A stretch of DNA of 64,000 nt from Ectocarpus siliculosus (lineage: Eukaryota > Sar > Phaeophyceae > Ectocarpales > Ectocarpaceae): contig FN649751.1 in assembly GCA_000310025.1 (NCBI GenBank), positions 5,404,253-5,468,252 of the forward strand, read 5' to 3'. The translations under genes were made by a program, and so were the position numbers. Shown here piece by piece: positions 31,271 through 62,086 of the stretch. The first letter of the stretch is position 1. Every line of letters starts with the position of its first letter. Under the pieces are notes generated by a model. That model was not told the origin of the DNA. It was given only the letters and a program-made list of their open reading frames with translations, and did no database searches.

Positions 31271-34200
31271 TCACGTGCGTCGTTTTTTATTACTATTCGT
31301 ACCGCCCTCAGCGCGGGGAGGTTTGTCCTTGTAACCCCTAACCCCGTCCCTTCGCCACTGAAAAAAAGTGCAACGAGCGTTTCGGTCCGTCGGCCAGTTA
31401 CCCGCCGAACGAGCGCAAGTGTAGAACCTCCTGTTGTGGTTTGGACCGGGCTTAAGAACGGTCCGCTGGATGGACGGCTCCCCGTGCTCGCAGGTCGGTG
31501 CGCTCTTCTTCCGTCCGAAAATGGCCTTCCACGCCTCCGCGCTGTCCCGACTACCACCACCCCCGTTCGGCCCCTCGCCTGGCCCTGTTTCGACCCCGCC
31601 TTCACCGCCAGGGTTGCTTAGTCTGCAACTACCAATCGTGCTAACGCTGCCTGACCCCCCACCGGCCCCTGCTGTGTCGTGCCCCCCACCCGATGCGTGA
31701 ACCCTCGAACGGGGTGGTTGAATCGCCTGAGAGGTCTGTGCACCACCACCACCACCACCACCACCACCTCGCTGGTTGCACGTGCGTAAAGGCACGGTGC
31801 CTTCAGCTCTTCTACTAGTCCCCGACCCCGCGCCATTGCCGCCCGCAGTCGCTTCCCGACTGGTGGCGCCCGCGGAGGTCGAAACATTACCATTTGCCGC
31901 GGGCCCGAACGCAAGCTTGCTCTGACGAGACCCACCGGAGCCAGGCCGCCGTGCCGTCAAGCTACCGCCGCCGCTGCTGCTAGTGCTCGATGTACGGCCC
32001 ACAGACCCTACTTTCTTCCCGCGCATCATCAAACTTCCAGCAACACTGGCACCGTCTTTCCCCGTTACGCCTGCACCCGGCAAAGCCCTCATGAACGCGG
32101 CCACGCCCTTTCCGCCGCCCGCGGCAGGCCGCGTAGCGCCGCTCTCCCTGGCGCCGTTCCCGTCTCTTACCAACCTGCCATCAGCCCCCTTCCCTTCGGT
32201 ACCCACGGCAGACTCTTCATTCTGGCCGCCGGCCACGAAATACTTGGCGAGCTTCTCCTGCTTCGCCGTCAGCTCTGGGTAAAAGCAGGAGCACTCGGGC
32301 GGGTGCTCCGGCCATTCGCTCGCAGACCGGCTTCTTGCGATTTCGTCGCCTTCGCTCTCGCCCGGGGCATCCGCCGCCAACCCCGCCGCCAAAGGGAACG
32401 CGAACCTCGCGCGCACGGGGCAGTGATCCGATCCCAGAAAGTCCGGCATGATGTCGCATGCCCGGAGAGCTCGGTCTGCGAAGTCCGTCCCCGCGATGAT
32501 GTAGTCAATGCGCGTGCCATAGTTGTTGTCACGCGCCCCTGTCTGGGTGTTCCAACATGTGAAGGCGCTCTTGCGGTCCGGGTGAAGATGCCGGAAGCAG
32601 TCCACTAGCCTTAGCACAGCGTATATGATTTTGGACCAAAACGCGATTAGGGGGGGTGGAATCAGCTGATACCCACGGCAAGCAGTAGTATACTTGTAGA
32701 AGACACCGACAACAACAGCTTTGTGTGCCGAAAAACTACGCGCGTCGAAGCATCCAAAAAATATTTGAGTCAGGGTCGGGATGCATGCGCCATCGAAAGG
32801 CACGAAGCACGTCAACCGACAAGATTACAACAGGAAAATGCTTGAGCGCAAAGAAGAGCAACAACAAGTAACACATGCCATACACACAACAAGAACATCC
32901 ATTCCCCCTCGGCAAAGATCTTTTGGAAGATCAACCCTCAAACCGTCCCCCTACTTCGCGAAAGTCGAGACGCCAGCCGTCGACCAAACACGGAGACCGC
33001 AGCCGTTGGTTCCCCCGCCCGTAGTAAGACAAAAGAAGGCCTTACTTACTTCTTCACCAGCAGATAGCAAAACGAGAGGCCACCTTGTGGAGAGCGGGCA
33101 AGACCAAGGCAAGCCAAAATCAAAACCAATGCATTTTGGGGCGCTACCAACCTCGGCGGCTCCGGCGAGCCCAACCCCAGCATCCCCCGGATCCACTTGG
33201 ACCAGTTGGAGGCGTAGAACTCGGAATCCGTCATGGTGAAGCCGTGGTCCAGCTGACTAGCGCAGGCGTTCAAATCGCCCACCTTAAGGTCAACGACATA
33301 AACAAAAATGAGTGCGGAGCAGGAACAACCGCGGCCGAAGGCACAAAAAATTGCGACGTGTCCGAAAAGAGGCTCAAACGTGCGCTGATGGCAGGCACGT
33401 TCCGAGTGGTCATGTGGCAGAATGCCAACCTCGCAAATTTGCGGCGGGTAGAGTGTCCACAATCGCTGCGCTACAGTCGGCGACGGGATGGAACGAATGG
33501 AATGAAGTTTTTCAAAGCGCTCGGCTCGCAGAAGCTATGTAGCGTTGTGCATATGTGTAACCAAAACTGCCAAGAGTGGGCCATCGGTACACCTAAACTG
33601 CTGCACGTGGGGGTCGTTAGGAGGGAGACCAACCTCACCAGCACGACTCCTCGCCCACGGCTTCGGATCTCGAAGATGCGCGCTTCCAGCGTGGCCAAGA
33701 AATCTCGCTTAAAGGCCCGGCGATCTTCCGTCTTCTCCTTCTCGTCGTCGGAGCTGGAGCTGCACCGGTAAAACCACCAAGACGGGGGGCCTTGGGGCTG
33801 TGAAACGAGCACGAGACAAGAGGGGAAGACTGCCTGGAGTATGGTGGCCCTCCTGGTTTCAAGAGGGCCAATACATCGTGCCGTAAAAACAACGTGTCAA
33901 ACATGAGGGGCTCTGCTCCGAAGCGAGATTCAGAAGCATCTCGGTCATGCGAGGCGCTTTCGTGAAGGACGAGAGAGAACAAAACTCAAAAGAATATACA
34001 GCACGTAGTGGGGCCTTTATAGTGACGGTCGAATAGTGCCCGTGTTTTCGGCTCGCACACACTGAACTACCAAGTCATTATGTATGTTTTTTTAATAGTC
34101 CCGGTGTCCAGAAAAATGGCGGTAAAATATACCGGCACTATGCAGGGTCCCACTACTGCTGTACCAGAGAGTGGGACCGACCCCACCTGACGCACGGAGC

Positions 34201-43023: not shown

Positions 43024-46000
43024 TCACCTCCACGGCTTCACCATCTTGATCGGCCTCGACTTCATGATCCGCACGCCTCCGGCCAGCATCGACGACGCTC
43101 CTGCCCCCGCTGTGCCGGACGTCCCCGTTGCCACGGCGGCGGCCACCCTTGCCCCCGCGCCGGGGGCGGCAGACTCGGGCCCGCCGGGTTCCACCGCCGC
43201 CTCCTCGTCCTCCTTCACGACGGCCACGAACCGCGCCTCCCTCTCGCCCGCCCCGTCCAACTGCGCCGCCAGCCCGTCGACCACAAGCCACCGGAGGTGC
43301 CGCTCCAGGGTCGGCGCCAGGTGCTCCAGCCACTCCGCCCAGTCTTGAGCGGAACCGGCGTTGGGCCTGCCTTCCCACGGCCGCTCCCGCATTGCCGCTA
43401 ACAGAGCCGCTGCCGTCGCGCCTTCCGGGCGTGTCGTCGACGACGTCGAAGGAGAAACGGCGTCGCTTGTGGCGGTGACCGTACTGCCGGCGTCCACAGA
43501 AGCGGCGGCCGGTCGAGGGGTAGAAGCCATCGTCAGGTAGTGCAGCACCGAGCACCGTTGCTGCCGCTCTCGCTCGTAGGTTCCGACGCGACGGGTCGCC
43601 GGCCGCGCCCGCGGCTGATCAGGCGCAGCCGCCGCCGCTAAAAGCGCCGCCCNNNNNNNNNNNNNNNNNNNNNNNNNNNNNNNNNNNNNNNNNNNNNNNN
43701 NNNNNNNNNNNNNNNNNNNNNNNNNNNNNNNNNNNNNNNNNNNNNNNNNNNNTTTCCCGTTCGAACTCGCCCACCTCGCCGCCGCCGCCGCCGCCGCCCC
43801 GCCCTCAACAACGCCTCCTGCTCTGCCGGCGCTCGCTTGCTCTCCGTTGGCCTTGGCCGTGGCTCCGACCTCGTCCACATCCCGAAACCTCCCGAGCGAT
43901 AGCTTGTGCTGACCGGTGAGCTTGAGGGAAGCGGTGAGGAGGTCAAGCGGCGGCGCAGGCCTACCCGGGCCGGTGGCCGTAGCTGGGCAGTATCTCTCCG
44001 AAAAGTAGAAATCGTTGCGGGGTGTTGAACTCGTCTCGTCCATCCGGGAACTCGCTCTTCAAAACGCATCACAAGGGGCGGCGCGCGAAAAAGACGACAA
44101 TGGAGCACAAGAACGATGTACAGGAACAAATAAGGTCTTTGTGTTTTTCGCCTCTTGAACCTCCCCCCTACACTGCAAGAGGCGTGACAATCTAGTAAAA
44201 TGCCCCGCCACAACAACGCAGATACGACGAGAGGCTGAGAGGGAGGGGAAACGGGTTGCGCGACGACTCAAAACACGAGTAGCCCGAGGAACGGTGGATA
44301 CGATACCCAGCGCCAAATTTGGCGCCAAGTCGAGCTCCCCAAATCCACAACTACACCGTACCCGCCGCTGACTTCTGCCGCTGCCATGGGGCGGGGTATC
44401 GTCAATAACGATGGCGGGACCGGAAGGCGCAAGGAAACCGAAAAAAACAGAGTACAACAACCCGCCAAACTTGCGGCCTGTTCGGTCTTTGCAGAACAAC
44501 GACCCGTGCTTTTCACACCACATGTGGCGGACGTCGTCCCCTCTCTCACGAAAGGACACGCACGGCACCCACCCGCGAAACACGCTTACGTACGACGGGA
44601 GGAACAAGCGACAACGCCGGGGCGGACATGCTCACCTCGGGACAGCCGCCGTGCCGCCAGCAGGCTTCGGGAAGAGGTACCCGGCGGACGCGCTCGCGCA
44701 CGGCCCAGCAGAGTAGGGGGGCCTGAGTTTCCCGTCGTTGTTGAACAGGATCTCGCGGTACGAGAGGCGGCCGTTCGCCTTCTGCAGCCCGCCGCCGGCG
44801 CCCCTCGACAGGAGCCCCCCCCCGCCAGCGCCGGAAGCTCTGGCCCCGCCGCCGCCGCCCCCGCCGCCGCTGCTGCCGCCGCCGCCGCCCGCCGCGGCCT
44901 GGTCCCTCTCCCCCTTGGCCTGCTTCGTCTCGGCGTCGTACTCGTCCGGGTAGCTGCAGTGGTTCGCCGGGCTCCAGGTGTTCATCTTGCAGTACCTTCG
45001 GAACGCACCGAGGGGCAGACCGAGGGGCAGAGGAGTGTTGGCGTGGATGAGGTCTAGGGCGGGAGGGTGGCACGAAAAGGCTTGACTGTCGCCGAGCGCG
45101 AACGCGGTCCAAACGGTCAAGCACGGAGAAAAAGATCGGGGCTTGTACCGTCACTATATGGACGCGTGCATACCAACAACAACCGTTGAGGCTGCCGTAA
45201 AAAAATCCGTGGGGATGGATGCCTCTCCAGCAAGAGGGCAAACCGGCACCGTAAAGCGTCCGAACATCGGAAATACCAGAACCAGGAAAATGTCATCAAC
45301 ACTGTCCCGCAAGGTTGAACGCACAACATATGGTTCCCGAGTCATAAATATATGCGAACGATAAACAAGGCGGCGGCGGCGGCGGGGCTGCGCCTGATCA
45401 AACACGGTGTCTCAGACTCAACACGTACCACGAACAGCCACATGGTACCACGACGAAAGCAAGCACCATTGCCGTCAGCACCGCTGTGCGAGTGCTCGGT
45501 AGCGGCAGCCTTGCCGTGTATTATCCCTTGTCTACTCTAAAGGGACCCCTCTACTGCTGTCGTTCGATGCTGTTGATGTGGGCGACGGGGAACTACAGAT
45601 GGCACCACTATATTCTCGGCATTAAAAAGTTTCGACCCGCGACGACACTCAGGAGGGGACTGTTGAAACATCCTCGCTATTATAACAAAAATGGAGGCGT
45701 GGTGCGTGCAGGCAGGTGTATGGGTTGATTCGCAGAAAAGATGGAAGGAAGGGTACTGTGCGATCCCTTCAGTAGACGAGAGCCGGGGGCACCATGACCA
45801 CGAGCGCGACAGAGAATACCAGAACGGTACCTCAAGACAAAAAAACACAAATCAACGTCGGCAGCGATGGGATCGCCGATTGCTGGCACAACGCTGATCA
45901 CTGCGTTAGGAATACATCTACTGTTGCTCTTTCGGCAACCTGCTACTAACACCCACGACAAGTGTCTCTCTACCTCTGGACCTCTTGCCCACGCCATATT

Positions 46001-48344
46001 GGCATTCAGCAAACGTCGTACAAGGGAGCCTCAATCCTCCGGAGAATCCGTCCGAGAAGGTCACAGGCGGATCAAACAGGAAAAAGGGTTCCCTCTTGCA
46101 ATGATTGCTGCACACCAAAACTAACGTCACTCGCACAAGTCTTGAGGTCTCGTCTCGCAGCTTCAAGCAAACAAGTGGAGTTCCGGAGTAAAGACCACCA
46201 ACCAACAACGGGTCTGTGCCGTTCAATTTACGCCAAAACACGCATGGACAGAAGAACCCCAAGGCGCTTTGGGTTCGCTTCGCGACGCGGTAGTCTACGC
46301 AGCAAAATTGATTAAGCAAGCGTATGGGATGAAGTATTCAATCCGTGCGTTGGGGTTAGGGATAGGGATAGTGATAGGGTCTGCGTGCGCCCCCTCCCTG
46401 TTATTTTTCATGTACAGTAGATACTTTCATGTACAGTAGATACTCTGAAAATCCTGCGTAGGCGGTCCACGAGCAAAACACTCGACAACCGTCGCGTCCA
46501 GTGGCAGCACGCTCGTCGTCTCTCACATGGCGACGAGGTCTGTCTTTCTGCACTCACCACTTGTCGGGCAGGTTCTCCAGCCGCATGCCGAGCGCCAGCT
46601 TTCTCCACCGCAGGCACCGGTCGCACTGCACCCACAACACGTCGTCTTTCTTCGACCTGCCCCGACCCCTCCCGCCGCCACGAGACCCGGCGTCCGACTC
46701 GTGTCGCTCCAGCCCGCTCCCCGAGCCCGGATCCCTCCTCCAGGCCCTCTCGTCCGACGCGTCGACCGACTCCGACGCAGCGCGAGCTCGGGAGCCGATT
46801 CGGCGGCCTCTAACACTGGCACCGCCGCCTCTGCTCCCGGCCCCGCCTCTCACGACGAAGGACCTGCCGCCCGCGGTGCCGTTGGTCGCCGGGGTTGGGA
46901 TCGAGGTGCTGTCCTCGGGCTGCTCGCAGCTTGCAGATGGGTTCCAGGTGCCCATGTGGCAGTACCTGATACGCGGGGAAATTGCCAGAGAGAGAGAAGA
47001 ACACACATACGCGCGCGCGCCTCTGAGGTGTGTGTGCCGTCATGCATCTCACGTGGATGACAACCCGTCTGTTGTGTAAAGGAAAGCCCACTCGATTCGG
47101 TATAGCTCCCCTGGCGCCCGCGTTGATGCTCGCTGCGAAGCCGCACTGCCTTCGACATCGGAAGGTCAAACCACAGCCACTACTCCCCCTTCCCGACCAA
47201 CTATTGGGCACGTTTTTTGGGAACAACAAGCAGCGCAGCGCAGCGCAGCGCAGCGCAGCGCATGGCCTCCAATCTGCCAACACTACTGCGACGACATCAA
47301 CCTAACCCCCAACAACAGCCCGTTCCTAGTTTGGAAAACAACCAAACATGGCCAACAACAACACTAAAAACAGGCGGTGTGTTATCTAGCAAAAACGCAC
47401 ACTCGCGGCCGGCAAGAGCATCCCCCCCCACTCACCACTTGTCGATACCCTGCACGCTCACACCAGGAGGGACGCGCCTCCACTTCCCGCAGTGGGCGTA
47501 GTCGCACATCACCCACTGGTCAGCCTTCGGAGGGGCTTCGAAAACCGCTCCGCCACCACCATCGGAGCGAGCCGCCGCATGCATGCCCGACGCCGCCGCC
47601 GCCGCCGCCGCCGCTGCTGCCCCGCCTCGCCCTCCCGACCTAACCTTCGGTGGCGCGGGCGCGATCTCGCCCCGGCTAGACTCCGCGGCCCTGAGGAGCG
47701 AAGCAACGGCGTCCCTCCCCATGCTGCCCCCGCCGCCGCTGCTGCCCTTCCTCCCCCTTCCCCGGCACGACGACACCCCCACGCCGTTCGGTCTGGCTCG
47801 AGCTTCCGGCACTCCCTGGCTCCCCCCCGCCCCTGCGTCCCGCCCTCCCGCCAACCCGGCACCGTCGTCGTCGGAGCCGGAGCCCACGTGCGCGCCGCCG
47901 CCGCCGCCCTCCCGCCTCCTCTTGCGTCTGATCGGGGCAGCGGTGCCGGTGGTGGTCGGCCTGTCGTCGATCGTGGTCCCGGCCGCCGCCGCCCTCTGGT
48001 TTTCCGCGGTGAGGGCCGGAGGAAACTGCAGCACGGGCCGCGTCTGCGCCACCAACGCTGCCGCTGCTACTGCCGCCGCGTGCACCGGGGGAGGACGCAA
48101 CGCCGCCGCCGGTTGCTGCTGTTGCTGCCGTGGTTCCGGGCCGTTGGCGGGGTGTGGGAACCTTTTCGATGGGCCGATGGCAGGAGCCTCGCGCTGAAGA
48201 TGATGATGACCAGCCGGGTCGAAAGCGGCGAGCCGGGAAGCAGCCGGGGGAATGTTCGCCACGTCCATCGCTGCCGCTGTTGTCGCCACCGCCGCAACCA
48301 TGGCCAGTCCCGCGTCCGCCTTCGCCGCAGCATTTGCTTCTACA

Positions 48345-48377
<33 letters not shown>

Positions 48378-51300
48378 GCCGCCGCCCCTGCCCCTGGCGC
48401 TGCTAAGGTCGGGACGGGTGCCACCACCGCCGGCGCCGCTGCCGGCGCCGCTGCCGCTGCCGCTGCCGCTTTGGTTGACGCCGCTTCCGCCGCTGCCACC
48501 GCTGCCCCTACCGCTCCCCCTACGGTTGGCGCGGCCAGCAGCCCGCGCTCAGCACGAGATCGCTCGGGCTGAACCACCCCCCTAGCCCCCTTGACAGCAG
48601 CACCAGCAGCGACCTGGGGCGGTGGTTGTTTTGGAAGAAAACAATCCACCACCGGCTTTCCCCAGTTCTGCATGCGGCAGTGCCACACGTCCGGGAGGGC
48701 GTCGGCGCTCAGGGTGCTCGGCAGCGTCCACCACTCCTCGCAGTTATCGCACTGGACCCACTCCAAGTCGTCCGCGTCGTCCTCCTCTTCATCCTCCTCC
48801 TCCTCCTCCTCAGACTCCACCTCGTGGTGCTCTTTCGCGACGCTTCTTGACCCACCGCCTCGCCCTCCTCCTCCCCCCCGCCCCCGCCGCCCCCCCCCCC
48901 TCCCTCTGCCGCCCCCGGAATCGTGCCCCCGCCCACGGCCTGCCCGCCGGATCGGGGCACTCGCGGCGAGCCGCTTGGTCGCCAGCACCGCGGCCTGGCG
49001 CTCGTGCCTCTCGGGGCGCTGCCCGAGTCGATTTCGGTCGGGGTCCATGCTGGGCTCAAAGCGGGTGACGCCCGACCGCTTCCTGCCGACGTGCCGGGGC
49101 TCCTCACCACCGGTGCCGTCGCTGCCGTCCGCGCTTCCGCTGCGGGCGACCTTTGAAGCGGGGGCCTGGGTTTCCTCTTGAGACTCTTCTCCTTCCGAGT
49201 CGTCCTTGGTGCTGCTGCTCTGCTGCTGCTGCGGCTTCGCCTTAGCCGCAGGAGCCTCCTCCTCCTCGTTCTCTTTGCGCTCTTCTTCCTTCGGCTTGTG
49301 CACCACGGTCGATTTCCCGACCGTAGTTGGTCGCCGATCAGCAGCTTCCGCCGGGACAGACGCTTCCTGGTCGCGTGGCTCGGGCTCTGGCTGCTTCGTA
49401 GGAGATCTCGGCTGCTTCGTAGGAGATTTTGGTTCCTTCGTGGGAGATCTCGGCTCCTTCGTGGGAGATCTTGGCTCCTTCGTGGGAGATCTCGGCTGCT
49501 TGGTGGGAGACCTGGGCTGCTTGGTTGGAGGTTCCGGTTCTTGCTGCTTTGTGGGAAATTCGGGCTGTTGCTTCGTGGGAGATTCCGGCTGCTGCTTCGT
49601 GGGGGACGAGTCCAGCGGTTTCGCGGTAGATTCCGGCTGCTTCGAGGGAGAAGAGCAAAGCGGCTTCGCGGGGGAGTCCGGTTGCTGCTCCTTCGTGGGA
49701 GACTCACGTGCGCCGTCGGGATCTTTCGCGGCGGGAGCAGCAGCACCAACCGGCGGCGGTCGGGGACCGGTGTGAGTGCCATCTGCAGCAGCAGAAACAG
49801 CCGCCCACACCCTCTCCAACGCAGCGCCCGGCGCGGACTGCGCCGGCCGTCCCTCCTTTTTCCCGTTCTCGACCTGACGGTGCTCGCTGCCCTTGCTACC
49901 CCCCTCCCTCTCTAGGCCGATCGTCGTCGACGGGCGCCGTGCATCCGAGGAAGAAGAGACGGCGGTGCCATTCCGGCGCTTCTTGTTGCCATCCTCGCCC
50001 TTTTCACCGCCCCCGCTCCCGGGGTCCTGCCCTTGGTGGCCCCCGTCCGCCTCTACCTTCGCACCGCCGCTGCCCACCGCCGAGGAAGGCGGGTCGATCG
50101 TGGGTTCCGGCGAGTCGATGCCCTCGTCGGTCGTCTGCTGCTCCTCTGACAGACTCGACGCTCGATCGTCAGCCTCCAGAGCCGCGGGCGCACGCTCGTC
50201 CCGTTGCGTCGCCGGCTTTGGCTCCGAACGGGGCAGCCCAACAGCGCCCGATGCAACATCCTTCTTCGGGGGCGGAGACGCGGGACCGGCGCCTGCCGAG
50301 TTCGTATCTCGCACGCCTTTCTCCTCGTCGATGTCCATGCTTTCCGGGCCTGCCCGCGCCGAGCGCGAGGGCACGGGGGGAGGCCAACCGCTCTTCGCTT
50401 CGGCCCCCTGCTTTTCCTCGCTCCGTGGCCTCTTGCGGACAGGGCTACCCCCAACTCGTCCGCCTCTACCGGCACCGCTTCCGGAAGCGGTCTCGCCCAT
50501 CTTGCTGCTGTTGGTGGCCTTGCAGCCGGTTTTCACGGGACCGGCCACAACCACCGCCGCCTCTTCCCGCTTCGGAGTGGCCGCACCACCGCCTCCCTCC
50601 TCCCCTCCCGAGTCTACGTCCATCGCATCCTGGGCCTTGGGGCAGGGGGGTGACGGGACAGCGCTCGGCGCCGGCGGGTCCGCCACGGGGGCACGACTCT
50701 CGGTAGGCTCCTCCCCCCTCGTGTTACCGCTCTCGTCCGCGGAGTCAACTTCCATCGCGCCGCTCGCCACGTCTCGGATACCGTTCGCCAGGAGACCCTC
50801 TTCCGCCTTGTCGTTGCTGACGGCGGCGAGCTCCTCGGCCGCAGGGGGGGGCTCGTCGACAGGCGACGCAGCGGCAGCGGTACCGGCGGGCTTGGAAGGG
50901 GAGGAGCCCCCCGACTTCACGGCGTCGGCGTCGCGTTGTTGGGCGGCTGGTGGGGGACCGGACGCCACCACCTCTGCCTTCGAAACCATAACCTTAGCCT
51001 TTGCGGTCACCTCGGTGGTCGGGGCCCTGCTGGTGCTCTCGGCGCCGGTCTTGCCTTCTTCCGCCGCCTCAAGGACGCCCTCGCCCTTCGGCTTGTTCGC
51101 GGAGGGCCGTCGGGGAACGCTTGCCTCAGCCGCTGCCGCCGAACCACCACCCGCTCTCGTGTCCTCCCGTCGTGTCCCGGCCCCGTCCGCCTTCCGGGCG
51201 TCTGGTTTGCTAGCCTCCGCCTCCCCCTTGTCCGAATCACGCGAAGCATCCTTTCCTGACACGACGGCAGCAGGGCCCGTACCGCTCTTCTTCGCGGAGC

Positions 51301-51640
51301 CCCCCCCTCGTTCCCCCGCACTCTTTCCTGACGGGCCTTCCAAGTCGTAGACGCCCTCAGAGCTCGACGCACTGGCGGGAGACGTCGACCTCCGCTGCGC
51401 GCACGCCACGGGACCGGCCTTGGCCTCCGCCACCTCGGGGGGACCGCTGCTGAACTCGTTCTCCTTGACCCCCCTACCCACCAAGCGAGGGGAGCAGGGC
51501 GTCTGCCGCAAAGAGGGGAGGAAAGTCGCGAGGGACGGGTTGTCAATGTTCACAGTACAGGAGAGGGTTCCGTAAGGGAGCCGAGACGAGCGACGGTGGA
51601 AGTTTGGCTTAGACCCGCCGCACCGTACCGCACCCGACAT
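43024..51640 (-). CDS. Triple CW-type zinc-finger protein (downstream part of the locus)
   Basis: Four exons on the minus strand: 47436-51640, 46558-46965, 44636-44995 and 43024-44056. They encode about 2,000 aa; the last exon spans a 100-N assembly gap. There are three CW domains, the family that reads methylated histone H3 Lys4. CW1 (about residue 958) is WVQCDNCEEWW...DVWHCRMQNW. CW2 (about 1373) is WVMCDYAHCGKWRRVP...DKWYCHMGTW. CW3 (about 1510) is WVQCDRCLRWRKLA...DKWYCKMNTW. Each has the four Cys and the key Trp residues. The first 950 residues are disordered, rich in Ser, Pro, Ala, Glu and Lys, with an SPTK repeat tract. Poly-Ala and RGG-like runs surround CW1. The C-terminal exon has a conserved-looking helix region (WAEWLEHLAPTLERHLRWLV) and ends VRIMKSRPIKMVKPWR. 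Junctions E-F, F-G and G-H are all phase 2. The start was set at MSGAVRCGG (51640), but the frame is open to a splice-acceptor-like AAG near 51682, so this may be the continuation of the Tudor-encoding exons upstream. Nuclear chromatin reader is the likely role. Confidence 0.85.
43653..43752. other. Assembly gap (100 N)
   Basis: Exactly 100 N, the usual placeholder for a gap of unknown size. It lies inside the last exon of the CW gene in GCC/GCG-rich sequence, so true length and frame across it are unknown. The frame happens to stay open on both sides. Confidence 0.98.
47228..47262. repeat. (GCAGC)n microsatellite
   Basis: Six or seven units of GCAGC in the CW-gene intron between the exons carrying the two halves of CW2. 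Confidence 0.85.
49385..49690 (-). repeat. In-frame SPTK repeat tract in the CW protein
   Basis: Read on the minus strand, a 21-base unit encodes about seven PRSPTK(Q/E) heptads in direct succession. Less regular SPTKQQPE and SPSKQPES versions occur on the N-terminal side. SP and SPTK sites are typical of proline-directed kinase targets and of basic DNA-binding tails such as those of linker histones. The tract is coding, so the repeat is constrained to stay in frame. Confidence 0.85.
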
Positions 51641-53050
51641 GGTCTCGAAAAACACTTGAACCTCGCTAGATTCGCCCACGTCTTGCAGCGGGCGTCATCA
51701 ACGGCAGCGGTGGCACAGGGCGCTACCTGCAGACGGCAGTTTTGCTCTCGGCAAGTCTAGCTCTTCGTGCAAGAGGAATAGAAGTGAAAATTTCTTTTGG
51801 TTGGCACACCTCACGGTTAGGCAAATGCCTTCCATCGTGTTAATCGCAACCACACAGGAGGTGGCACCTACACCAGCGAACCATTTCCCCGGTTTTTTCC
51901 GCCAGCTGTACAGTAGCACTTCGGAAATCCTCAAATGACTGATGCTCAGGATCAAATCATGACCGCAACTTCTTCAACTGCAACCACGCCTGTATGGATC
52001 TACATATGACCGAAACGCTGTTTTAGGATGGAAGGTAGATGAGTTCTACCACTACCTGGGTCTACGCCAAGCTATGACGATGTTGTGTTCAGAAGTGGAT
52101 CGTAGCCACGACCAAACATCCAAGCGTGTCCCGCGGTTTCGACTTTGCGTGTGCCGAGAACAATGGTGGCGTTCAAAACCCACCGTCACCACCACCACAA
52201 CCACCTCGCGTCCATTTTTATGGCGAAACAGTAGTTGGGAGGCAATACTAGTGAGCACATCGCAATCCGTCTGAAACTCCACTGCAAACAAGGGACGTGT
52301 TCCACATGGTCAGTCGTCTTTGCAGCCGCCCCGAAACATCGGGCGACGTGCGGGAAGGCTTTCTTCGCCTCTTCGATTCCTCCTCCTCTTGCTCCTCGTA
52401 AACGTGAAAACATAGTTCTGGCTGCAGGCGTTCCTTCAAGCCTACCAACGGGGCATCACCGGACTGATCGTTTTCTCTTGAGCTCGTTCGCGAATAACCT
52501 TTGGATTTGCGAAGCGTTTACTACTGTGGGAGAGGACGGCCAAACACACAAATAACGGAAGGACCCCCAACCGTATCCGACGGCATCTATCGCGCACAAC
52601 AGGTAGGTGTACGTGAGTACTGAGCCCTTGAAGGCATAAGTTCTTCCTCCGTCTGTCAATGGTAGTCGAGGCAGACTACACAATAGTTAACTCTATTCTA
52701 GGTCACGGCACGCGTTGCAAACAAGAGTATCAACCAATCCATTTCTATTTCACCGCAAACGCTTTGTCCATATGAAGAACTCGGCGAATGATACAGGTGA
52801 TCCCAGTGGACACAAGACGAGCTGCGATCCTCACGCCAAACGCACGGTTTCAAAGAGCTGGGGCGGTCTTTCGCTCTCCACAAAAAGCTGCAGCAGCAAG
52901 CAGAATGCGCAAGATCTTAGCTCGAACAGAGAGGACGCACGAAGATAAGGATGGCTTGCTTGTTTGCTGCTTTTGGGTAACATACGTGTCAGGTTTACTT
53001 GGTGGCACTTTCCCCCTCATATCACAACGCCATGGACCCTACGTATGCGA
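51641..53050. other. Linker between the CW and Tudor parts of the locus
   Basis: About 1.4 kb in which no exon is certain. If the two parts are one gene, at least one exon entering at phase 0 and leaving at phase 1 is needed here. The best minus-strand candidate lies around 52290-52400 (EQEEEESKRRRKPSRTSPDV), bounded by an AG and followed by a possible donor, but its phase was not made to fit. Otherwise this is the 3' region of one gene and the promoter of the next. Confidence 0.35.
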
Positions 53051-56000
53051 CTAGACGGGAGAGATGGCCATCGGGCCCAGACGTTTCATTTTCTTGTTGC
53101 GACATTTACCAAAAAACCTTGCTCTCACCTCCTTGCTTCGTGGGCTCTTGCGCGTGCTCGAAGACACATCTGTCGACAGCCCCGCCTTCCTCTCCGCTGA
53201 CCCTTGCAAGACGGGCGCAGTCACCCCAGCCGCCGCCGCCGCCGCCGCCGCCGCCGCAGCAGCAGCAGCAGCCGTGCTCTCGCCCCGCTCCTTGCCCTCC
53301 GCTGGCCGGACATCGATAGCAGCAGGCTCGGCGCGCTTGGTCTGCTGCTTCGCCCTTCCTCCTGCCCCCCGCGCCTGCCCGCGGCCGCCGCCCCTTCCCC
53401 TCCCCCTCGACCCGCCCCCCCCCCCGTTGGAACTCCGTGCAGCGGCGGCGGTGGCGGGAGTCGGGAGGACTTCCACCGGCGGGGTCGCTTCTCGTCGGTC
53501 CGCGGGGGGCTTCGCTCCGTCCTTCCACCCGCTTGACGCGTTCCCTCCCCCACGCAGAACGGCCTCCGGCTTGACGACGGTGCTGGTGCGGGCGCCTTTG
53601 GCCGCGGCAGCGGTTGGTGGCTTGGCCTGCTTGCTTTTCTTTGGCTGCGGAACACGGGGAACGGCCGTGCATGCCGACGAGAAAAGGGGCAAGACAATTG
53701 AGTCGCGAGCGCGTTCATGCAAAAAAGGGCGAAATGAGCGTACACACGCGCGCAGAGCGACACCCGGAAGTGACCCGGGCGAAGGCGAGCAAGCCGTGCA
53801 AAAATAGCGGTCTATGCCTGCGAGGACATGTCCTTAGGTCTGCGACCAGGACTTGTCGTGGGGCAAACGGGGCACCCCAGCCAAATGTAATGTTCCCACT
53901 CCCACAAAGGTACACACACACGCTGACGCGTCTACCAGACCCACCACACTCATATACAAAAGCCACACAACTTTTTCCACCCCTTACCTCCTGCGTTCTA
54001 TGTGGTCGGCGCCCCTCCTCCCCCTGAACGCCGCCGTTTCGCAGGGCGGCGGCGGCGGCTGCCTTGGCATCCCTTCCCTTCTCTTCCCTAACACCTTTGC
54101 TCCCGTCCTCCTTCTTGACCGCCGCCGTCGCCGCAACAGCTACGGCTGCGTCCCGCCCCTCCTCGGGCTTCCCCACCTCCCGCTCACCCTCGCCCTTCTG
54201 GCGAGCTTCGCCCCCTCCCCCGGACGTAGCCTTGGACGCTGGGCCGCCCTTCGCGCTCCCCGACGCTTTCTTCTGCCCGCCGCTCCGCCCCTCTACCGCC
54301 GCCGCCGCCGCGACCGGGCGCGCGTCCTCAGAGCCAGCGGACGAGCTCGAAGAAGAAGAGGAGCTCTCCGAGCCGGAACAGGCGGATGGGGATGATACGG
54401 GCGGAGCCGCGCGAGATGATCTCGCGGAGCCCCCCGTCCGCGGAGCCCCTGCTGCCGCCCTCCGCGGCGCTTCCTTCGAGCCGTCTTTGCCGCCGCCGAG
54501 CCTCTGCCCCTTGCGCTGCTTGGGTGGCGGGGAGGCGGCCGGCTTCCTCCGGGGGCTCGCGCGCGGGCTGCGGGCCTTTGCCTTGATGCCCAGGGACATG
54601 TCGTCCAGCTCCTCCTCTTCTTCCTCCTCCTCGGAAGCTGAACCGGATTCGCTCGTCTGTCCGCTCGGGGTGTTGGTACCTGTACCCGGGGAAAAGGGCG
54701 CGGTTTCGACGTCAAGGATAAGAAACAATGCTCCAACGCGTGGCTTGCTAAAGAGAGAGAGAGAGAGGACAAAGACTTCGAACACTACAGACGCGTTGCG
54801 CAAGAGGAAAAAGCCGAGCCGAGCCGAGTCACGCATGGTAAAGCGTAAGGCATGTGGAGGACTTGACATCGTTTCGAAAGCGCCGGGCCCGGGGTTCGCC
54901 ACTGGTTCGACAAGTGGCGACTCTTCAAAAACATGATCTCGCTCGAAAATTGAGATGGATGTCGGGAGGTGCTATACAGTATTCTTCTAGAAAGTCAAGG
55001 CCACAACGCATACGACGACACACCCTACTTACATATTCGAAGTACGTCGTAGTTCCGTAAAAAATGGCCAAAAAATACGAGTGAACGTACAACGTACAGC
55101 TCGACGCTGCACACGGGCTGAACGCCATACATAGCCCGGGCCAGGTTCCGGGCGTACGGGCGAGTTTGTTTCGCAATACTCGGTCATCACAACAGGTGAC
55201 CGCAAAAAAAGCAAGAGCGGCACGACTGAATTGACGTAGTTCGATTTCTACACCGGGATCGGTGTTTACTGCTGAACCAGATGCGGCAACCCCGACCAAA
55301 ATCCTACGCTTCGGGCGTCCAAAGATGACGCGATACATAGCGCAAATGTCTCCGTGCCACTTTTTGAGTTGCGTCGGGGGAATATGCAGTTGGCACTTCA
55401 CATGCGGCAAGGGTTACCATCGGGGTGGGACTTCTCAGATGTATTACACCGTCGCTGTGCACGTGGAATGAGTCAAGATGCTTCCAGTCGCGGTATCGAA
55501 GTACGTACCACTTCGGAATAATTGGCATAAACAAGACACATCCCGCGACCCACAAACGACCGAACACAGAAGGAAGCCATTTCGCTACCGTGCTCGCTGT
55601 TACAGACAAAACGACAAGGGGGGGGGCTTCAGCCAACTCGACGCCAACAGAAAAACTGATTACTCCCAGCACGAGGCCATACCATTGATAGTCTTTGGCA
55701 CACGACATAACTCAAGACGCATTCGACCCCATCACAGGTCAACACTCGCTGCATGTGCTGGCACGCAAGCTGCTACATAAGCACCAATATCATCGCTACA
55801 CCCATCAAGGTCATTGCATCGCAAGGTCGTTGCGTCGGGGTGCTTGTGTGCCGCACTGCAGGCCGGGATAGGGACGCTTCATTTCACTATCACACCTATC
55901 TGAGTTACCTCACCGGGGGTGTCCTGGGTTGGAACAGCTGTAGAACAAAATGATTCGTTGTATCTCCGCACCGGGATCGGGGGGTTCGCACCCATACGGG

Positions 56001-57959
56001 GTTGTCGCAACTAACACCAACAGACAATATTAGAACACGTCGCGCTCCGGTGCCCTGGACCCACACTCTGCCGTAGCTAGATAGCCACGCGGTCTTCTCA
56101 TGTCGCAGCAAAGTACAGCCCGGTTTGCGCCCACCGTCAACGCAAATCGTAAAAAGCCTAGCACGTAGAGATTTACGGCCCGACAAAAACGCCTGCAGAG
56201 GGAAAACCCTCCGGCTCACATCTTCACGATAAAGGAGGCTCCGTCGGTTCACACTACTGGTCGCCCCGGTGGTCTAGTGGGTACCCTCGCAGCCTACTAA
56301 GGGTCAGGTCATGGGTGAGAGTCCCGGCAAAGTGAGTTCTTTTTCTCACTAAATAAATCCTGGTCTAAGTTGGAAGCGACGCGCTGCAATGCTCACCATC
56401 AAGGGCGCCTCGCCGGCGTTTCGGCGCGCTCCCGCCCCGCCCGTGGCGTCTTCCCGGTCGTTTTCGGGGGGCCGACCGCTGGGACGACTGGCGCCCCCTA
56501 GCTGCCGCCGCCGATAGCATCTTGCCGTTCCTCGGCTGCTGCTGCTGCTGCTGCTGCTGCTGTAACCGGCCGTTCTTCCTCGCCTCGCGCGCGTCCCTCG
56601 CGCCGCCGCCGCCGCCGCTATGGACCGATTCATCGTCTCCGTCTTCCCCTTCGTCCTCCTCCTCCTCCTCCTCCTCTTCAGACTCCTCTGAATCGTCCTC
56701 CTCCTCCTCCTCCTCTTCCGATGAAGACGACGAAGCCGCTGTTGCCGCCGCCTTCGGTGCCCCACGCCCGCTGCCTGCCCGCGCGGGCGCGCTCGAATGC
56801 TGCTGCTGCTCGCGCCTGCTGCTGTTGGCCATCTGCCGATGCTGGCGGCCCTGCGCCTGCTTGCTTCGCGGGGGGGCCCAGGGGAGACGCGCCTCGGTCT
56901 TCACCGCCACCTTGGGCGAGCTCCCGGTCGTCGTGCCCCCCGCGGCGTCAGATTTGGTGGCGTTGGCCTTGGCCTCCGCCTCTTCGTCCCGCATCTGAGC
57001 GAGGGTCCGCGGGCGGACGCGCTGCTCCAGCGGGCGCCAGGGGTAGATCACGATGTCACTGTCGGGGATGTCGGAGACCTCTTGCGTGCCGTCGTCGTAG
57101 TCGATGCGAATCATACCCCTGGAGCACAACGAAAAGCCGGGCCCCAAACGACACAAGTTGATAAATGTCTCGCAAATCGTGGTTAATTGTGAGCGACGCA
57201 AGGCTTCATGAACAAGGCGCGGGGCACACCAATACGATACCGGTACTGCTACATACCTGGCATGACGCCTACAGCCAGCCTTCAGCGCAGAGACAACTTG
57301 GTGACGAATGGGACCGACGGGGTTACTTTTAGGAAAACAGGCACGACCAAGAACAAAGACGCAACGAATGCCGAAAGTCTCCAGGATAACTTCACACAAA
57401 AGCCCTGAAACAATGTACTATTACAAGACCTGCGCGGGGTGAGATCGAACTCCAGCACCCACCCCGTATGGCCCTACCAGAAGCAGGCCATAGACATGGG
57501 GGGTCGATAGACCGAGCTGGCTGCCGACAGTTTGGCCGGCCACTTCTAACTCCGGCCTGTGGAGGGTACATACTCCCGAGCCACACCTGTCCGAAACAAT
57601 CACGCACAAGACAAACGTCCAACGCATTGTAAGCTCTGCTCTCACCCTTTCTTGTCGACCTTGAGGATAGTCCCGCTGTACCAGTGGCCGGTGTCGAACT
57701 TGACCTTGATCTGTGACCCCACCTCTGCCCCGTGGGCCGCCGCGATAACGCTCTGCCTCGGCGGCGACACCGGCTCCGCCTCTCCCTGCTTGGGCTTCGT
57801 GGCGCCCCCCGACCCGTGACGTCGGTCCGGTACCGTCGCCCTGCCGCGGCTGCTGGTCATGGGGGTTTCATCATCGGAGTCCGATTCGTCCATTTCGTCG
57901 CTGTCCGCCTCTTCGGAGGAGTCGTCGCCTCCATCTCCCGAGCTGTCGACAGTAAGCAT
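53051..57959 (-). CDS. Tudor/Agenet-like domain protein with acidic low-complexity regions (upstream part of the locus)
   Basis: Four exons on the minus strand: 57646-57959, 56397-57118, 53988-54679 and 53129-53644. If translation runs past the last donor it stops at 53051, giving about 773 aa. The start MLTVDSSGDGG leads into an acidic Ser/Asp/Glu stretch. A Tudor/Agenet-like barrel follows: VGSQIKVKFDTGHWYSGTIL, then VDKKGGMIRIDYDDGTQEV and SDIPDSDIVIYPW, split by a phase-2 intron between DKKG and GMIRI. The rest is low complexity: poly-Ser/Glu, poly-Gln from (CTG)n at 56537-56563, poly-Ala from (CCG)n at 53228-53260, and basic RGG-like runs. The last exon ends at a strong donor (GAG|GTGAGA at 53128), which argues for continuation into the CW exons. 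Tudor folds bind methylated Lys or Arg, so a histone-reader role fits the neighbouring CW domains. Phases between exons are 2, 1 and 0. Confidence 0.78.
56263..56340 (+). repeat. tRNA-like sequence (degenerate tRNA or SINE head)
   Basis: Begins GCCCCGGTGGTCTAGTGGGT, a good A-box context. About 45 bases later comes GGTGAGAGTCCCGGC, which resembles a B-box plus T-stem (GGTTCGAATCCCGGC in intact tRNAs). The acceptor stem does not pair well, so an intact tRNA gene is unlikely. It lies within the intron between the second and third exons of the Tudor-type gene. Confidence 0.4.
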
Positions 57960-58009: not shown

Positions 58010-59180
58010 TATCCTGTGGTGGTAGTCGTACATCGTCCGAGCGAAGCAGCGTTCGCGAGCTCCGACTGCTGTTGTCCCCTCTCGTTTGCGGACACCGCAC
58101 GCCTGCGTGATGTGGTTTCCCCGTGCGCACCGTTTCCTTCCTCCAAGCAGCCCCTTGTGGCGAGAGCGGCAACCGCCATGGCGATCTGTCCTTGAAGCCG
58201 AGCTCGGGACAACAGCTGGCCAAGAAGGAGAGTCCGGACGTGAGCTCGCCGGGCTGGAGGGAAAAACTCGCCCTCTTCAACAAGGCCGGCGGTAGGAAGG
58301 ATGGTAGAGCAGCAGCACGTGTATTTTCTTCGCCTTCTCATGTCCTCTTCCCATGAAAGTATCGCATCCGTCATATCCCCCCATCATAATCTCAAGTGCC
58401 AATATCCAACCTCCTATATTGATATTGCAATCCGCCAGTTTTGCTCTCTAGCCCATAGGATATACTCCCGCAACCACTCGTCATAACCCTCCTCCCAGGC
58501 GTCGTAAACGCTACTCCTGCTCTTCTTTCTTGATTGACCAGTCCAAGCGGTCAGCCGTTCGCGTTCGTTCATTGCGGCAAGACGCCCCATGTCTTTGCCG
58601 CGACGTACGTCTCGCGGCAATGGATGAACGTCAACCGCTCCACCACTCGGACTGGTCCATCGAGCACGGGAAAAAAAAGCCGAGGTACGACGCCTGGCGG
58701 GAAGATTTTCACGAATGGTTGCGGGAGCATATCCAATGGGCTAGAGAGCAAAACTAGCGAAGGGGATTGCAACGTGTACAGGTTTCCGATCTTGGCGCTT
58801 AAGACTGCGATCGGGGGTAATACCGGATGCGATACTTTCGGGGGAAGAGAACATAACCAGGCGAGGAAAACGCCCGCCCACCCACGCCCCCGTGCTGCTG
58901 CTCTACCGTCCTTTTTACCGCCGGCCGTGTTCAAGAAGACGAGTTTTTTGCTCCAAACAGGGGAGCTCTCGCCGCCGGGCTCTCCGTCTTGGTCATACTC
59001 GAGCTCGCCTTCAAGGACAGATCGCCGTGGCGCTCTCGCCACAGAAGGGGAAGGAAAGGGAGAACCGGCGCACGGGAAGCCACAACACACAGGCGTGCCG
59101 TGGCAGTAACAGCAGGCGGTTCGGAGCTCGCGAACGCTACTTCGTTGATGTGCTCGCACGACGACACGACATGATAAGAC
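58010..59180. repeat. Diverged inverted repeat with about 0.58-kb arms
   Basis: The left arm (about 58010-58590) and right arm (about 58600-59180) are reverse complements with roughly 75-80 percent identity along their length. Landmarks pair symmetrically about 58600: gttcgcgagc at 58051 with gctcgcgaac at 59126, gcgatctgtccttgaag at 58181 with cttcaaggacagatcgc at 59009, and ttttgctctctagccca at 58439 with tgggctagagagcaaaa at 58737. Mirror-image small ORFs share a motif. The minus strand (58414-58620) has YDAWEEGYDEWLREYILWAR followed by EQN. The plus strand (58530-58757) has YDAWREDFHEWLREHIQWAR followed by EQN. Both read outward from the centre. It lies directly upstream of the Tudor-type gene start. 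A foldback transposon remnant or an inverted duplication is possible. Confidence 0.8.
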
Positions 59181-62086
59181 AACCACCACAACACCTCACG
59201 TGCCTGCTAGCCCGACCTGACAGCACTGCTGTTCTTAACATTTGGTGCGAGCGACAACACCCGATTCAAAATCTTTACCGAACAATAATGCATACAAGAA
59301 CCTCATGCCTCCTACTGCTGTACCGACGACCTGCGTCTCGAAGAGTTTACTACGTCATCGGCAGCCTTGTGGTACAGCAGTTGTGTCATGACATGTATCT
59401 GCACGTAGAATATGTGATTTTGGTTTTGGAAAACGTAAGCAGCTCGTGCAGGAATACCTAGATTTATTCAATCAAGGCGGGTCCCGGCGCATTGATTTGC
59501 CTAAAAACGTGTGCCGCTACCCTTTATTCGCCTCTCAGATTGACATCCCGTCGCCCGATTACAGACTTCAAATATTGAAAAAGCTGATCAGATTCTCGAC
59601 CAACATCCCTTCCACGACTCAGGCTGGCAAATGCAACTATAATGGACCCGCAAAGAATGGTTCGCTGATCTGCGCTGGCGGAAAAATCAAGGCAGAGACA
59701 AGCTCGAAGGGAATCGCTGGGCCTGAAGCCCAAAGAGCGAAAAATCTGCAGGAACGTTAAACGTGCCCCGGTTGCTGGAGTAACACACACCCACACGCCG
59801 GTTAGCGCGGTCGATGCTAATAAAAAAGACACACACAAACACACACACACACACACACAGCAGCCCCCCTCGGTTAAGAGAGGAACACCACATGCTCCAT
59901 CGCTACAAGTTCCTACCGAAAACAACATCACATGCTACCAAACGCCACCAGCGGCGAAATCCACGCAACCGTGACGCCGACGACGGCCATTTGTCACAAA
60001 AGACCAACCCCTTCGGCAATAGTTACCCCGTGCCAACAAAGCGCCTTGAGGCCCCTTTTACATACCTTCGTCCGCGGCGTCCGGCTCGGCCCCTGGAGCT
60101 ACTCCCGCTCCCGGTGCGATTCCGGTCGGAGCTCACGCCGAACCTGTCCCCTCCGACATCGTCCCCACAACGCCTGCCGAAGAGATGGGACGACGGGGTG
60201 GAAAAGAAACGGCATATGTCCGCAGTTACGGTCTTGACTGCCGCGGTGGCGGGTTGGGAAACGACAGATTCACCGGCTGCTGTATGATTGATTCCTGGCA
60301 AGCCACAATTCTGTGCTTCGGGCGGCCAGTCTACACAACGGCCCTGCCCTGCTTGTGGTGGCTGCTTGTGGTGGCCATCGCGTAAGGTGTACGGTCTGTT
60401 GGGATTGGGCAGACAAGAGGGACGCGCGCGTGCGACTATCAAGCAACGACACGTGTGGTGTCTGGGGCGGCTTGTTTTCTTCGTTTTTTTTCAGCGCAAG
60501 AGAAAACGACTTAAAAAATAACAGAACCGCACATTGAACTTGTCGCGCGTCGGCTTCAGCAATAACCAAGACCCGAGCATATATCATACCACAAAATCCT
60601 ATTCGTACGGCGGTGCCGGGGCCTCCTCGCAAAGCGTGACCGGATGCACGTTCCGGAAGCCGAAGGATGGCCATTCGTCTCCATGGAGCCGGGTGGAACA
60701 CCCCCAACGCCTGTGCGGCTACTTTTCCACGTGGTGTGTATGCATATGCGTCCTCGCTTCAAAAACTGGCTACCCCAGCGGGAGGAAACAGCCGTTTTCG
60801 GCGTTATGAACGCGCATTCCGACATCCCTTGGGTGCGTCGAGCTCAGAACCACGCAGAAAAGCTCACTTCCCCTCTCACGGAACAGAGTGGGCGAGGCGG
60901 ATCTAGATGGTGCCTGCCCTGTGGGCATGCGAGGAGCCGGAGCTCGAATCGTCGCGGAAAAGGAAACATATCCCTCACTTTGGATGATGATGCGCGTTGC
61001 CAAAAAAAGAGCAGAAGTGCAGGACCGAAAACAAAGAGCAAAAAGCCCCTTCGTACTTTCAAATCAATCCGCCACTGGCAACGCGCGGTGAGCTGATCGA
61101 AGACAAACCGGCCTCCACTACGATCCTAGCGCAGGTCTCCCCTTGAATCCCGTCGACGTACGGCGAGCACGGCCCTGGCCCCCAAACTTAATCCTTTCCC
61201 CAAAACGCGCACCTGTGTCTATCCGCCGGGCCACCTGCAGAATTGCCCCCACGCCCTCTGTGCGATGTCGAAGGAGGAGGCTTCTCAACATTCAAAGATG
61301 CCTTGAGCGCCCTCCGGAGCGAGGTCATTTCATCCGCCTACCCGCCGCCGCCGTCGCACGCGCACACACCCTCCCGACGAAGACAGATAGACGAGGCAGC
61401 CAGGCGCTGATCCGAGCCAGGCGCAAAAAAGAGGAGGAGCGCACGACACACCACCCACACGGACACACGCCGAGGAGAAGAATCAGGCGTGATTTTCTGG
61501 CTTTGTGAAACAGCGCGTTCCCGGATGATGTCGCTTGTTCGTTCCCACGCGAAAACGCCACGCCCCCGCGCCCGGCGCGAAACAGTAAGGGAGGGGGGTA
61601 TCTCACGCGTGCACACACAGCCCCTCTCCCTTCCGAAAAGGGAGGCGCTTGTTGTATTCGTTTTGTGATGACAACGCAGACACAGACGAGATAGCGAGCT
61701 CGGCTCGGAGCCCGGGCGGCACCGCGGGCGACAATTTTCGTGGTGTGTGTGCACGTTTCAGACTCTGGAACCTTCCGCCAGCCCCCCCCGTCTCATGTAC
61801 ACACGACACGTCGCTGCTGCACTCGTGCGTGAAAGGAGCTGCAATCAAGGTGAGGTGTGAAAGTTGCGCAACGTTAGTGACAAGCCGCTTGGTGTAGTAA
61901 AGTGACGTGAGCTTGGGGCTTGTAGGGGATGATGGTTACTGGGGTGCAAATACAATGTGTAATGTCAAACATACCCTCCACGCCTCTCTCCCCACACGCA
62001 CGCATACACGCATACATGCAACCACCTTGCTCGTGGATCCAGCAGAGGATCGCACCAGTGTCCGGGAAGCCATCGAAGTTACTAGC
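59181..62086. other. Mostly unassigned region
   Basis: No family was recognised. Weak candidates are a plus-strand frame at 60534-60809 (containing CTFRKPKDGHSSPWSRVEHP), a minus-strand Arg/Gly-rich frame ending at a GTATGT donor near 60059, and a plus-strand stretch near 61246-61330 (LCDVEGGGFSTFKDALSALR) with an acceptor-like CAG before it. None has enough support for a gene call. A CA microsatellite lies inside. Confidence 0.35.
59829..59859. repeat. (CA)n microsatellite
   Basis: About 15 CA units with one interrupting AA, in the unassigned region. Confidence 0.9.

Follow-up and report, generated by a model that had tools for sequence, protein, structure and literature searches.

A predicted eight-exon locus with three CW zinc fingers

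The locus described here lies on the minus strand of a 64-kb stretch of the Ectocarpus siliculosus genome (C26:5404253-5468252; henceforth the window, in whose numbering all positions without a contig name are given) and encodes three CW zinc fingers and, upstream of them, a Tudor-like domain. Its reading frames were assembled into a minus-strand gene model of eight exons, running from an ATG at 57959 to a TGA at 43024, in which the phases all agree and 2,682 codons stay open, 34 of the residues being X at a gap of Ns. A first-pass annotation of this DNA had described three complete CW domains on the minus strand and had stated that the triple-CW claim would fail if CW2 or CW3 had a hidden Markov model score below threshold. 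The spliced domains score 36.8 (CW1), 52.8 (CW2) and 56.6 (CW3) bits against zf-CW (PF07496), and all three exceed the Pfam curated cut-off of 27.5 bits; even the unspliced exons still match this family (exon 5 in two stretches, 47.1 bits; exon 6, 33.5 bits). Each finger keeps the four zinc-binding Cys and the three conserved Trp (two of the pocket and one of the core) whose roles in CW domains are described in PMC9043364, and the description of a triple-CW locus is thereby borne out. An alignment of CW1-3 with MORC3 and with the one other CW found in the genome searched (189 Mb in 492 contigs) contains eight invariant columns (W, C, D, C, W, W, C and C), and all four CWs found in the genome share an extra Trp after the third Cys (NTW, QNW or GTW) that MORC3 lacks. 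The Cys spacing is C-x2-C in CW1 and CW3 and C-x4-C in CW2, which has two additional residues between its first two Cys, in the same loop where ZCWPW1 has a longer insert (PMC9043364). CW2 and CW3 are interrupted by an intron at the identical place (TG/G within the codon of the third Trp), whereas CW1 and the other genomic CW are intron-free. Identities amount to 19/46 columns for CW2-CW3, 18/45 for CW1-CW3, 16/47 for CW1-CW2 and 22/44 for CW3-MORC3, and it is the shared intron, not the identity, that suggests an origin of CW2 and CW3 by duplication. Along the chain CW2 begins 415 residues past CW1, and CW3 137 residues past CW2. A single-sequence structure model of CW1 was poor (predicted local distance difference test, pLDDT, 64.7; predicted template modelling score, pTM, 0.36).

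The exon sites of the model (Table 1) were chosen by eye first and the splice pairs were scored afterwards, as frame-compatible donor-acceptor pairs under consensus weights that were hand-set from recall, not trained on the genome. At 7/7 junctions the pair used in the model ranks first among the frame-compatible pairs. Two junctions are backed independently because the joins rebuild CW2 and CW3, and the exon 1-2 junction is backed more weakly because its join rebuilds the Tudor-like match. The GC content is 0.65-0.74 in the exons and 0.52-0.57 in the introns. Codon bias, scored in bits per codon with a training set that differed by run (without exons 5 and 8, without exon 8, or including exon 5), is in frame in every exon, exons 1-7 being themselves part of the training set in that run. 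When exon 8 is excluded from the training set, its model frame scores 0.233 bits per codon after the N gap and 0.221 before it, and its other frames are negative; the agreement of frame across the gap, the nominal length of which is possibly not real, could be luck. The acceptors of exon 7 (top 17% of AGs) and exon 8 (top 20%) are weak, which counts against the model, and the 5' end of exon 1 is uncertain, with an alternative weak acceptor at 57942 (top 7.3% of AGs).

Upstream of the model ATG, and ending 56 bp from it, lies an imperfect palindrome of 1.2 kb (58015-59190), which over 1.1 kb is approximately 70% identical to its own reverse complement, with arm pieces of up to 96%. This palindrome could give rise to hairpin RNA or be the remnant of an old inverted duplication, and might be of relevance to the gene's 5' end; a genome DNA search, in which one candidate was scored, returned no other copy.

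Table 1. Exons, the disputed intron and CW domains of the minus-strand gene model, in window positions. Splice pairs are ranked among frame-compatible pairs.
Feature	Position	Strand	Description
Exon 1	57646..57959	-	Acidic N-terminus and first half of Tudor-like domain (57728-57646); donor 57645 in top 0.6% of GTs
Exon 2	56397..57118	-	Second half of Tudor-like domain (57118-57037), then acidic and basic low complexity; splice pair best of 70
Exon 3	53988..54679	-	Low complexity, rich in S/E/K/A; splice pair from exon 2 best of 38
Exon 4	53129..53644	-	Low complexity, RGRG-rich; strong terminal donor 53128; splice pair from exon 3 best of 211
Exon 4-5 intron (disputed)	51503..53128	-	1,626 bp, between Tudor and CW parts; pair best of 94, also of 617
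Exon 5	47436..51502	-	4,067 bp; disordered region, SPTK repeats, CW1, first half of CW2; two zf-CW stretches (Pfam)
Exon 6	46558..46965	-	End of CW2, linker, first half of CW3; splice pair from exon 5 best of 64
Exon 7	44636..44995	-	End of CW3, Gly-rich linker, segment GRLSYREILFNNDGKLRPPYS; splice pair from exon 6 best of 92, weak acceptor
Exon 8	43024..43993	-	Last exon; 100-N gap 43653-43752; predicted long helix near C-terminus; pair best of 37, weak acceptor
CW1	48632..48763	-	Single exon, intron-free; nearest solved chain MORC3 (E 3e-5)
CW2	47521-47436 + 46965-46911	-	Phase-2 intron, whole only when spliced; nearest solved chain MORC3 (E 6.4e-6)
CW3	46637-46558 + 44995-44941	-	Phase-2 intron, whole only when spliced; nearest solved chain MORC3 (E 1.2e-11)

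The Tudor-like domain

The first-pass annotation had also read a Tudor/Agenet-like fold in the upstream exons. The join of exons 1 and 2 does match the Tudor/Agenet group weakly, but, as a point against that reading, it reaches no curated cut-off: PTM_DIR17_Tudor (PF21743), the best Pfam relation, scores 23.2 bits (E 6.1e-5) where 27.2 are required, Agenet (PF05641) 19.6 where 27 are required, and a MORC2 chromo-like family (20.0 bits) and four weaker families are likewise sub-threshold. Solved structures gave weak matches only, to the Tudor domains of 53BP1 (E 0.46) and Arabidopsis RDM15 (7DE9; E 0.55). In the phmmer alignment with RDM15, which is weak (E 0.55) and serves as a guide only, and on which we placed the RDM15 residue numbers by our own count, F, Y and Y stand at W616, Y623 and Y641, D at D643, T at D645 and E at E647. 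The RDM15 Tudor domain is a reader of histone H3 monomethylated at lysine 4 (H3K4me1), with a cage of W616, Y623 and Y641 and an H3R2 contact through E647 (PMC8184781). Within this weak alignment the aromatic cage positions and the H3R2-contacting Glu are matched, which we take as a lead to putative methyl-lysine binding that predicts no particular methylation state; with F in place of W616 and T in place of D645, the monomethyl selectivity of RDM15 is therefore not predicted to carry over.

One gene or two

The disputed point of the model is the intron between exons 4 and 5, which separates the Tudor part from the CW part. In our judgement exons 1-8 are probably one gene, and would be joined in a single transcript. 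The strong donor that the first-pass annotation had placed at the end of the Tudor part is confirmed: 53128 (GAG/GTGAGA) is in the top 0.21% of window GTs under the hand-set consensus. Its pairing with the acceptor at 51502 leads the runner-up by 4.8 bits among 94 pairs and by 1.6 bits among 617 pairs over a wider span. The first in-frame Met after the exon 5 acceptor is at 50989, and the preceding 171 codons score 0.339 (trained without exons 5 and 8), so that the coding signal begins ahead of any Met.

The alternative that survives best, although we consider it unlikely, is that two genes lie side by side on this strand, the first (exons 1-4) encoding a Tudor-like protein of low complexity and the second a triple-CW protein whose start would be ATG 51640 or lie in an unseen short first exon. 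The frame of exon 4 continues beyond the donor to a stop at 53051, but this read-through is not coding-like (-0.021 over 26 codons). Several findings do speak against a single gene. Random 900-nt targets match the exon 4-5 splice score in 597/3000 trials. The exon 5 frame is open from 51694, and the 46 codons from the in-frame ATG 51640 to 51503 at the acceptor score 0.175 with exon 5 held out, which is below the downstream value; this stretch is weakly coding-like, and a separate start at ATG 51640 is therefore possible. Windows of 20 codons at 51694 and 51664 score 0.39-0.40 (exon 5 in training). In favour of one gene, the windows that start from 51634 to 51544 in the same run give values of 0.0 to -0.22, followed by a rise from 51514 on. 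For comparison, a score of 0.118 or more, which is what 51694-51503 obtains (exon 5 in training), is reached by 38/969 overlapping stop-free stretches of intron. The GC change-point is broad (51776-51500) and provides no sharp placement of the exon 5 start: in a wide window it peaks at 51737, which lies upstream of ATG 51640 and of the acceptor, and in a narrower one at 51539. The single-gene claim of the first-pass annotation is thus retained in part: the best frame-compatible splice pair and the 171 coding-like codons before any Met speak for it, the random targets and the stretch after ATG 51640 against it.

The remainder of the protein

Approximately 65% of the predicted protein consists of A, G, S, P, E and R, and from this composition most of the chain is judged to be disordered. 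In a Pfam scan of eight pieces representing exons 2-8 (E up to 0.01), with exon 1 and the start of exon 2 scanned separately (E up to 1), no credible domain was found in exons 1-8 besides zf-CW and the sub-threshold Tudor-like match; exons 3 and 4 returned no match at all, and the sole other listing in exons 2-8 was NOA36, on the acidic stretch of exon 2, at 16.6 bits against a cut-off of 32.6. The segment GRLSYREILFNNDGKLRPPYS of exon 7 matches no Pfam family, and its best other site in the genome has an E value of 0.123. Similarly, no Pfam family was found for the predicted long helix of exon 8; a single-sequence model of the C-terminal 79-residue piece contains helices only (pLDDT 72.7, pTM 0.39).

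Ahead of CW1, residues 1349-1451 (49394..49702, minus strand) contain nine SPTK motifs, seven of them in the last 63 residues, in KQPRSPT-type heptads. Motifs of the S/T-P-x-K/R type number 16, whereas 2000 shuffles average 4.6 and never exceed 11, an excess that is mainly due to a tandem repeat with a period of 21 bp (6.8 copies, 49389-49530). S/T-P-x-K/R is the consensus of cyclin-dependent kinases (CDKs). The SPTK motif is near, although not identical, to the SP(K/R)(K/R) motifs of sperm H2B, which bind the DNA minor groove and whose binding is inhibited by serine phosphorylation (PMC9903204).

Relation to known CW and Tudor proteins

The best solved-structure match of all three fingers is the CW of MORC3 (5SVX/5SVY and relatives), with which they share the same four Cys and three Trp. 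The CW of the MORC family recognises H3K4me2/3, and MORC proteins carry an ATPase (PMC9043364), of which the Pfam scan of the model found no match; moreover, MORC3 has one matched CW stretch per chain, compared to three in the model. ZCWPW1 and ZCWPW2 (CW plus PWWP) resemble the model in combining CW with a second type of methyl reader on one chain, and hence in the idea of dual reading, but exons 1-8 contain no PWWP match, the Tudor-like module sits in the N-terminal part, a long way from the CWs, and there are three CWs. ASHH2/SDG8 (CW plus SET) is alike in having a CW within a large chromatin protein; however, no SET match was found in exons 1-8, and the CW of ASHH2, which reads H3K4me1 (PMC13361950), scores under that of MORC3 for 3/3 fingers when CW-only chains are compared. 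The portion consulted of a review of protozoan readers mentions a single characterised CW reader from a parasite, T. brucei ZCW1, and names no multi-CW protein (PMC8638923). We found no multi-CW protein, and no chain with three CWs and a Tudor-like module, in the open-access literature, searched mostly by title, which is weak evidence of novelty.

A search of genome contigs with CW3 gave 72 pattern stretches of which 0 were confirmed, and a search of viral contigs with the Tudor-like part gave 48, again with 0 confirmed; the two collections consist of prokaryotes and viruses, to which these absences apply. Of the two CW3 loci on viral contigs, one (L031) was rejected as a chance match, as its frame differs from the long open frame and the contig is phage-like; the other (L032) matches the same 16 query residues.

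A predicted multivalent reader of H3K4 methylation

The pocket residues conserved in all three fingers suggest a multivalent histone reader, as in the first-pass annotation, which regarded it as possibly specific to brown algae. The explanation that we consider best, with a probability of roughly 0.55, is that the locus is one gene for a multivalent reader of H3K4 methylation at active promoters. Its product would be a mostly disordered nuclear scaffold, at least ~2,680 residues long, that has the Tudor-like module near the N-terminus and the three CWs near the C-terminus. Each CW would clasp methylated H3 lysine 4 between its two pocket Trp, and a second methyl mark, which may again be methylated H3K4, would be bound by the Tudor-like module, so that four weak contacts per chain could provide avidity for nucleosomes dense in this mark, such as those of active promoters. 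The spacing of the CWs in a disordered chain might allow them to reach two tails of one nucleosome or of neighbouring ones. The SPTK repeats could add a DNA contact, which CDK-type phosphorylation would switch off. In Ectocarpus, H3K4me2/3 peak at active transcription start sites, the core components of PRC1 and PRC2 are apparently not encoded, and the writers and readers of many histone marks still need experiments to identify them (PMC7784034). A point against is that the residue closing the CW pocket on its C-terminal side is variable, and the methylation state preferred by the CWs therefore cannot be predicted.

A reading that we regard as doubtful is that the CW fingers serve a structural role or bind DNA and do not read H3K4 methylation. 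CW1, the lowest-scoring of the three, has EWW where MORC3 has KWR, activation of MORC4 requires a CW-DNA contact as well (PMC9043364), and the basic low-complexity stretches suggest contact with nucleic acid; against this, 3/3 fingers retain the full set of two pocket Trp and one core Trp. That the locus is an artefact (a pseudogene, a mis-assembly or a chance open frame) is very improbable, for although many frames stay open in GC-rich low-complexity DNA and a 100-N gap lies inside exon 8, it is opposed by three over-threshold fingers, seven leading splice pairs and in-frame codon bias in every exon.

As an extension of the multivalent-reader explanation, and one that we offer as speculation with long odds, four H3K4-methyl modules (three CWs and an RDM15/PTM-like Tudor) together with a CDK-switchable SPTK array that binds DNA might constitute an avidity sensor for densely H3K4-methylated promoters that is releasable with the cell cycle, CW2 and CW3 having arisen by internal duplication. 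The component domains are known and the functions predicted for them are those of their families; the combination is unusual but not outlandish. Readers of histone marks are poorly known in brown algae, and the locus offers them a concrete H3K4me reader candidate, as well as a natural case of putative multivalency that could be dissected domain by domain.

Other CW and Tudor-like loci in the genome

A search of the genome with the CW family gave three matches, namely CW1, the first half of CW3 and one other locus, and a search with the CW3 protein (E up to 10) gave four, the same three and the second half of CW3. Because a CW split by an intron can escape such searches, as CW2 did, the genome has at least two CW loci. 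The other locus (C26:6993321, L001/L026; with L030, C26:6975100-6994900) has one intron-free CW of 60.8 bits, followed by an Agenet/PWWP-like stretch that is sub-threshold (Agenet 22.4, PWWP 20.4 bits). Upstream of this CW lie colinear segments resembling SDG2_C, the C-terminal family of ATXR3/SDG2 H3K4 methyltransferases, corresponding to profile positions 2-32 (24.9 bits) and 158-189 (13.7 bits), both below the cut-off of 27, and 221-284, which scores 30.8 bits in a shorter piece and 27.1 in the whole open reading frame. No SET match was found at this locus (E up to 0.01); the piece before the first SDG2_C segment resembles, by eye, the end of a SET domain. If this is one gene, its CW may sit on an ATXR3/SDG2-type H3K4 writer with a built-in CW reader. 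SDG2 proteins are not known to carry a built-in CW. The triple-CW gene and this locus are alike in combining CW with a Tudor/Agenet-type stretch, and differ in that the latter has one CW and an SDG2_C-like region upstream.

A PTM/DIR17-like Tudor stretch (20.8 bits, sub-threshold) was also observed at the end of a retroelement integrase frame (L005; Integrase_H2C2 51.9 bits; rve 29.2 bits, sub-threshold). Seven loci including L005 share a score of 25.4 bits at profile positions 1-48, the integrase context having been read at L005. Chromoviruses carry a chromodomain at that integrase-terminal place.

Elsewhere in the window

Scans of the 64-kb window with Rfam (gathering threshold) and for tRNAs gave no matches. 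On the minus strand at 31271-32824, an endonuclease/exonuclease match (18.6 bits, sub-threshold) precedes a GRF zinc finger (43.7 bits, over cut-off), an arrangement that resembles an APE2-like DNA repair gene. Exon-like frames on the plus strand at 8667-10629 match F5/8 type C (37.2 bits, over cut-off) and the laminin N-terminal domain (23.3 bits, sub-threshold), as in extracellular proteins. A tandem repeat of 96 bp at 22136-22425 (three copies, 97% matches) is open on the minus strand. The EsV-1-7 family is a hallmark of brown algae; genome-wide, 150 matches to its motif were scored out of 880 candidates, and 150/150 exceed the family cut-off.

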